Below the pieces are notes generated by a model. It did not search any database. It was not told the DNA's origin and worked only from the letters and a program-made list of their open reading frames with translations. The position numbers and the translations under genes were made by a program. This document shows, one piece after another, positions 20,777-21,011 of a stretch of 45,137 bases of DNA (the stretch's first letter is position 1; each line of letters opens with the position of its first letter). This DNA is from Deinococci bacterium (GTDB lineage: Bacteria; Deinococcota; Deinococci; Deinococcales; Trueperaceae), in assembly GCA_030149325.1 (NCBI GenBank), contig JASBRS010000006.1, forward strand, positions 1 to 45,137, given 5' to 3'.

Positions 20777-21007
20777 TAGCATCGGGCGAACCTGGAAGGC
20801 GAGGCGCGCCGTGACCCCACGGCGACTCGATCGGGCACTCGCGATGACCAAGCGTTCGGACATCCGGCTACCTGCGTTGCTGCTAGGCGACCTCGAGGTC
20901 GTTGTAACCCCGGTGGATACGCACCGGGGTTTCTTCTTGGACTCGGTCGAAGCAACGCGAGGGCGCGCGCGCCGCGGCGCTGGCATCGCCATCGAAAGGA
21001 GGCCTGC
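20777..21007 (+). promoter_or_regulatory. Leader region of the branched-chain-type dehydrogenase operon
   Basis: The 377-nt gap 20631-21007 holds, on the plus strand: a TAGCAT -10-like box (20777-20782); a hairpin GCCGTG/CACGGC (20808-20813/20818-20823); a reading frame rich in Leu/Val codons (20844 onward); a 14-nt perfect palindrome CGACCTCGAGGTCG (20888-20901); and an intrinsic terminator (20906-20938). The Shine-Dalgarno of E1alpha (AAAGGAGG, 20996-21003) follows. No plus-strand gene lies upstream that would need a terminator here, so the region looks like an attenuator. Confidence 0.6.
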
Positions 21008-21011
21008 GTGA
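20844..21011 (+). CDS. Candidate branched-chain-codon leader ORF of the dehydrogenase operon
   Basis: 55 codons from the ATG at 20844 to a TGA that overlaps the E1alpha GTG by the GTGA arrangement used by other coupled genes here. Its N-terminal third reads [15 protein letters not shown], with Leu codons CTA, TTG, CTG, CTA, CTC and Val codons GTC, GTT, GTA in a row; CTA, TTG, GTT and GTA look unusual in this GC-rich genome. The frame passes through the terminator. No Shine-Dalgarno is obvious before the ATG; an in-frame GTG at 20811 is an alternative start. It may be a leader peptide or simply untranslated. Confidence 0.3.
20906..20938 (+). terminator. Intrinsic terminator inside the dehydrogenase operon leader
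   Basis: Perfect 10-bp stem AACCCCGGTG (20906-20915) and CACCGGGGTT (20922-20931), 6-nt loop, followed by TCTTCTT. It is the only terminator in the window with a clear T-rich tail, and it lies about 70 nt before the E1alpha start. Confidence 0.85.

Follow-up and report, generated by a model that had tools for sequence, protein, structure and literature searches.

Background

Amino-acid attenuators are the textbook switches for biosynthetic operons. The pyrBI operon of E. coli is also biosynthetic; there polymerase pausing conveys the nucleotide supply. The E. coli tna (TnaC) and speFL leaders act through ligand-dependent ribosome arrest and Rho. In pyrBI the leader ORF (pyrL) spans an intrinsic terminator, and a ribosome coupled to the polymerase prevents the hairpin from forming (PMC5021804, PMC4824070). 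The leader described here, which lies ahead of a branched-chain 2-oxo acid dehydrogenase (BCKDH) operon in Deinococcales, shares that layout, but its predicted signal is the charging of branched-chain tRNAs at rare codons and its operon is degradative; with neither a pyrimidine signal nor a biosynthetic operon, it would work like pyrBI without being a member of that system. The classical ilv and leu attenuators, including the one ahead of ilvB in these same genomes, resemble it in having Leu/Ile/Val codons, with CTA favoured, before an intrinsic terminator, but they have a stop codon before the terminator and an antiterminator that forms on stalling, and the BCKDH leader has no such stop and no comparable predicted antiterminator. 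With tna and speFL it has in common the leader-peptide control of a catabolic operon that would be on when substrate is abundant, and it differs from them in that its terminator is intrinsic and its peptide has no conserved arrest sequence. The proline-codon leaders of mgtL and mgtP in Salmonella also use the codons of one amino acid in a leader ORF to tune termination; there a stall at the proline codons raises expression (PMC5021804), whereas a stall in the BCKDH leader is predicted to lower it. We propose, with a probability of about 0.62, that the BCKDH leader is a pyrBI-like, amino-acid-gated attenuator of inverted polarity.

The BCKDH operon and its leader

The window (the whole stretch of DNA that was analysed, 45 kb) is an entire contig of a 3.04-Mb assembly from a family (f1) that we take to be Trueperaceae; genus names used below are likewise presumptive. 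Thermus-type genomes are among its relatives within the order. The features of the leader and operon are as follows.

20774-20782, plus strand: putative extended -10 promoter element TGGTAGCAT, from sequence
20794-20804, plus strand: Shine-Dalgarno-like GGAAGGCGAGG, presumably of the leader ORF, from sequence
20811-21011, plus strand: leader ORF, running through the terminator to a GTGA overlap with E1alpha; frame backed by in-frame CTA in relatives
20862-20906, plus strand: sensor codons ATC 20862, CTA 20868, TTG 20877, CTG 20880, CTA 20883, CTC 20892, GTC 20898, GTT 20901 and GTA 20904
20886-20903, plus strand: hairpin B, GGCGACC-TCGA-GGTCGTT, in the interval between the Leu run and the terminator
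20906-20938, plus strand: intrinsic terminator within the leader ORF, with a T-rich tail after its 10-bp stem
20995-21002, plus strand: Shine-Dalgarno AAAGGAGG of E1alpha, from sequence
21008-22105, plus strand: E1alpha of a branched-chain-type 2-oxo acid dehydrogenase (Pfam E1_dh; best solved relative Thermus 1um9)
22133-23110, plus strand: E1beta (Pfam Transket_pyr and Transketolase_C)
23168-24514, plus strand: E2 acyltransferase (Pfam 2-oxoacid_dh, Biotin_lipoyl and E3_binding)

The genes for E1alpha, E1beta and E2 stand together, and E1alpha, whose best solved relative (the Thermus protein) is followed by branched-chain enzymes, is closest to the latter, as expected of a BCKDH; its sequence relationships thus point to 21008-24514 as a branched-chain-type dehydrogenase operon with a correspondingly predicted substrate. 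BCKDH consumes branched-chain keto acids and yields acyl-CoA primers for iso and anteiso fatty acids. The operon seems not to extend beyond E2, since the gene that follows has minus-strand orientation; this convergent gene (24597-27629) encodes a 1010-amino-acid PEP-utilising enzyme with PPDK_N and PEP-binding domains. Immediately upstream of the operon, also on the minus strand, 18513-20630 encodes an MgtC/DUF4010 membrane protein and an HRDC-domain protein.

A preliminary description of this DNA placed a terminator with a 10-bp stem 70 nt upstream of E1alpha, with no plus-strand gene ahead of it, and both the sequence and our terminator scans bear this out. The stem is AACCCCGGTG-GATACG-CACCGGGGTT (20906-20931), followed by TCTTCTTG, and its end lies 70 nt from the E1alpha GTG at 21008; because the upstream neighbour, the HRDC protein gene at 19806-20630, runs on the minus strand, the terminator has no plus-strand gene to end. 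That it is the only textbook terminator in the window was nearly right: few terminator-like sites score in the 45 kb, although a 12-bp stem followed by TGTTCTTCTG at 21573-21599 (plus strand), inside E1alpha, scores as well and is the sole further site whose stem is long. The latter may be a coding coincidence, or may be an ORF-internal terminator sensitive to uncoupled translation.

The leader ORF ends at a TGA (21009-21011) and has 66 codons if it begins at GTG 20811 or 55 if it begins at ATG 20844, with which the GTG is in frame. The GTG is the more likely start, since the Shine-Dalgarno-like GGAAGGCGAGG ends 6 nt upstream of it. Elements of the form TGnTAnnnT resembling TGGTAGCAT are present upstream of E1alpha in several relatives, and transcription is predicted to start near 20789. 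The GTGA overlap with E1alpha, earlier pointed to as a feature of this frame, is indeed present, but it is weak evidence alone, being automatic for any ORF in the leader frame because E1alpha begins GTGATT. The 14-nt palindrome previously reported, CGACCTCGAGGTCG, is found at 20888-20901, within the 7-bp hairpin B. Hairpin B is a candidate polymerase pause hairpin; it has been argued that, unless a pause site holds the polymerase up, a ribosome is unlikely to reach it in the first 100 nt (PMC4824070). The hairpin is stable in genomes G000, G012, G052, G073 and G088 and is not general (mean z -0.8), and we rejected it as a universal leader feature, as it is present in some relatives only.

A ligand other than branched-chain tRNA had also been suggested. 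The leader gave no Rfam match at gathering thresholds, and relaxed thresholds gave only implausible weak ones; a T-box, which GGTGGATACGC in the stem had prompted us to consider, was rejected for want of an Rfam match, as was membership of any known T-box, riboswitch or other cis-regulatory RNA family. The conserved codons are those of Leu, Ile and Val, which also speaks against a different ligand.

Recurrence in other Deinococcales

Relatives of E1alpha are present in 96 of 101 genomes, and about 87 of the regions upstream of them were oriented and read. A terminator together with a Leu/Ile/Val-rich ORF lies ahead of BCKDH in 30 leaders from three Deinococcales families: Trueperaceae (e.g. 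G005, G009, G012, G019, G022, G025 and G033), family f3 (G040, G044, G048, G052, G061, G073 and the g28 group) and the non-Thermus Thermaceae (G058, G087, G088, G096, G099 and others). Examples of the leader peptides are MPNRENALALVIIG, MLKLSNTALVLIIG, MPSARTPIVLILTIG, MGMPAVLKLVIVGL, MMLQEPLLVLGLALAMG and RLAILVLIGSL. A similarity search with the leader DNA found only short GC-rich matches elsewhere in relatives, so the leader is conserved in layout and not in sequence: all three families have the codon run, CTA, the terminator and the open frame, but not the DNA sequence, in common. This recurrence ahead of BCKDH supports the earlier proposal of a ribosome-read attenuator with branched-chain codons, and we regard such an attenuator as very probably present.

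The layout is not found in every BCKDH leader. No recognised terminator is present in 23 Trueperaceae upstream regions, several of which have a -10-like element close to E1alpha; this suggests that the attenuator has been lost there. The Thermus-type (g20) BCKDH leaders, for example L023 and L137, also have no attenuator; they are compact, with about three predicted hairpins between the -10 element and the ribosome-binding site.

A separate feature was seen in the Thermaceae. All 40 Thermaceae BCKDH leaders, and three of family f3, carry at about -50 to -111 from E1alpha a single hairpin or a pair of them whose loop is always UUACCCA (e.g. L023, L029, L137, L155 and L165). Their stems covary (GCCC/GGGC, CCCCC/GGGGG, GGGCCT/AGGCCC and GAAGC/GCTTC), and five such leaders checked against Rfam gave no match. 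There is about one copy of the exact 15-mer GCCCTTACCCAGGGC per genome, in most cases at the Thermaceae BCKDH leader; other copies of the core in Thermaceae genomes are mostly in long open frames and do not resemble the hairpin. These hairpins are a candidate for a new cis-regulatory RNA, but being absent from Trueperaceae leaders they were rejected as part of the window's system.

Codon choice and reading frame

The codons CTA, TTG, GTT and GTA had been noted as looking rare, and codon usage agrees: each makes up less than 4% of the codons for its amino acid in nine window genes (3740 codons), with CTA at 1.5% and TTG at 3.5% of Leu, and GTT at 3.7% and GTA at 3.4% of Val. The run of Ile/Leu/Val codons earlier remarked on is present too, but at the window locus alone (5 in 8 codons, best of three frames) it is not above composition-matched dinucleotide shuffles (p = 0.10), which is what would be expected if it were a chance hydrophobic stretch in a spurious GC-rich frame near an unrelated terminator. 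It reaches significance only across relatives, where the same test combined over 13 leaders gives p = 2.4e-5. Chance is contradicted as well by the recurrence in three families and by the frame of the CTA triplets, and we consider it very improbable indeed. Among 20 leaders from the three families, 31 CTA triplets 15-66 nt before the terminator are in the leader frame and one is out of it (binomial p = 3.5e-14), and CTA accounts for 41 of 89 Leu codons in leaders vs 22 of 471 in E1alpha sequence (p = 8e-22; p = 5e-13 with one genome per genus). The leader frame was picked partly for its Leu/Ile/Val content, and frames and leaders partly by eye; the mutual agreement in frame of the CTAs in leaders that have two or three of them is independent of that choice. 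These counts argue for a real leader frame, presumably a translated one.

The sensor codons are also focused in position: Leu, Ile and Val make up 46-56% of the codons 18-44 nt before the hairpin, and at most 20% of those nearer than 18 nt. This focus, and the near-exclusive use of in-frame CTA, would be left unexplained if the leader sensed general translation, or coupled it to that of E1alpha through the GTGA overlap, with the Leu/Ile/Val codons playing a minor part. A ribosome crossing the terminator would indeed report any slowing of translation, and in many leaders the ORF overlaps or nears the E1alpha start; however, with E1alpha starting ATGAT or GTGAT, the overlap comes automatically in that frame. 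A general translation sensor is thus distinctly unlikely.

The peptide itself could instead be what matters, as in TnaC or SpeFL, if the nascent chain bound a branched-chain amino acid or keto acid and so stalled the ribosome, leading to induction. Such a device would fit the logic of a catabolic operon, and E. coli catabolic operons are controlled in this way (speFL, PMC7815308; tna, PMC5021804). But no fixed residues outside the Leu/Ile/Val class are common to the leader peptides across families, within-genus changes appear unrestrained (a codon-position test on amino-acid changes among close relatives, itself uninformative, gave no purifying selection on the peptide), and the terminator is intrinsic and would be left free by a stall at the sensor codons. 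We find an arrest peptide quite improbable.

Position of the leader stop codon and predicted folding

The BCKDH leaders and the ilvB leaders of the same genomes differ in where the ORF ends. In all ten Deinococcales genomes checked (L181-L190) the ilvB leader is classical, with a CTA-rich peptide (e.g. MTSDPHAYGWIVVLGLGLRGRTA for the genome of the window, MPESLTLTLVVVGLVIIGSTGDRV for G088) whose stop codon lies 18-28 nt before the terminator. On the other hand, the stop codon precedes the hairpin in none of the 30 BCKDH leaders; their ORFs end 14-202 nt past the hairpin start, 28 of them beyond the 3' arm or T-tract region and two (G040 and G052) inside the hairpin.

Folding predictions in which the ribosome was stepped along the codons, with a single assumed footprint reaching 13 nt past the A-site base at the front, separate the two kinds of leader in a similar way. 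In ilvB, with the ribosome on the sensor codons, the 5' arm of the terminator is mostly paired in what is predicted to be an antiterminator; the strongest such pairing is 7-22 kcal/mol per leader, vs 0-3.2 once the ribosome is at the stop. For nine BCKDH leaders the best predicted 5'-arm pairing with the ribosome on sensor codons is 0.8-7.8 kcal/mol, and none has a predicted antiterminator comparable to that of ilvB, in agreement with the preliminary description, which had clearly identified no antiterminator partner. In the model a stall at almost any sensor codon leaves a high probability of terminator formation, and a ribosome that has moved on prevents it altogether.

That description had reasoned from the classical polarity, off when amino acids are abundant, and had seen that this is the opposite of what a degradative enzyme needs. 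With classical polarity a stall at Leu or Val codons would favour an antiterminator or cover the terminator, so that starvation would turn BCKDH on, for example for branched-chain fatty-acid primers. A leader peptide, sensor codons and a terminator are the classical signature, and there is some weak 5'-arm pairing at certain stalls (up to 5.5 kcal/mol in G000 and 7.8 in G048). In addition, a stall at the last three sensor codons of the window leader, the Val codons at 20898-20906, would cover the hairpin, so Val starvation could be opposite in effect there. But the predicted pairing is weaker than that in the ilvB leaders of the same genomes, and at almost all stall positions the terminator outcompetes it; sensor codons become sparse just where a stall would cover the hairpin; and all 30 leaders have their stop beyond the start of the hairpin, so that a ribosome that did not stall would break up the terminator by its own passage. 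The missing stop before the terminator and the lack of a predicted ilvB-like antiterminator speak against classical polarity, which we hold to be unlikely. Both the degradative-enzyme paradox and the missing antiterminator are resolved if the translating ribosome itself antiterminates, as in pyrBI.

Proposed mechanism

In the pyrBI-like attenuator that we propose, a leader ORF of 55-66 codons would place rare Leu/Ile/Val codons just before an intrinsic terminator and continue in frame across it. When charged branched-chain tRNAs are plentiful, the lead ribosome would clear the run close behind RNA polymerase, to which it is presumably coupled, and the moving ribosome would cover or melt the terminator hairpin, allowing transcription of E1alpha, E1beta and E2 (ON). 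When Leu (or Ile or Val) is scarce, the ribosome would halt at the rare codons before its front edge had reached the hairpin, leaving the hairpin free, so that the terminator would fold and transcription stop (OFF). This response would be the reverse of the one expected from the classical attenuator that these genomes have on ilvB.

That starvation would terminate and sufficiency would read through follows from the stall modelling, the codon placement and published work. Ten to 15 nt of free RNA between the A site and the hairpin permits full folding, and the placement of Leu/Ile/Val codons 18-44 nt before the hairpin agrees with this requirement; ribosomes also repress terminators close behind them (PMC4824070). 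In E. coli a stall site upstream of the pyrL terminator raises termination unless it is relieved by EF-P (PMC5021804). The polarity argument is steric and not a kinetic simulation, and on it the attenuator is probably inverted as described. We lean towards extending this to a pair of Deinococcales leaders that read charged branched-chain tRNA through CTA and other rare codons with opposite outcomes, ilvB being classical and BCKDH inverted; the side of the terminator on which the leader stop falls would then fix the polarity.

Implications

Coupling of the pyrBI kind and codon-based amino-acid sensing are both already known; what is apparently new, in that we did not find it in the open-access literature, is the use of the two together on a degradative operon, alongside a classical attenuator on the biosynthetic one. 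The open-access literature held no report of an inverted switch on a branched-chain catabolic operon, nor, in the same scope, of either the BCKDH or the ilvB leader in Deinococcota; most subscription papers lie outside that scope, and this is not proof of novelty. If the mechanism is true, the same sensing parts drive degradation once the leader stop has been moved past the terminator, so that attenuator polarity would be predictable from sequence, and the BCKDH leader would be a naturally occurring example of ribosome-polymerase coupling in bacteria other than E. coli. It would also be a minimal route to inducible amino-acid degradation without a regulator protein. For these bacteria, having ilvB on and BCKDH off under starvation, through the same codons, would spare branched-chain amino acids.
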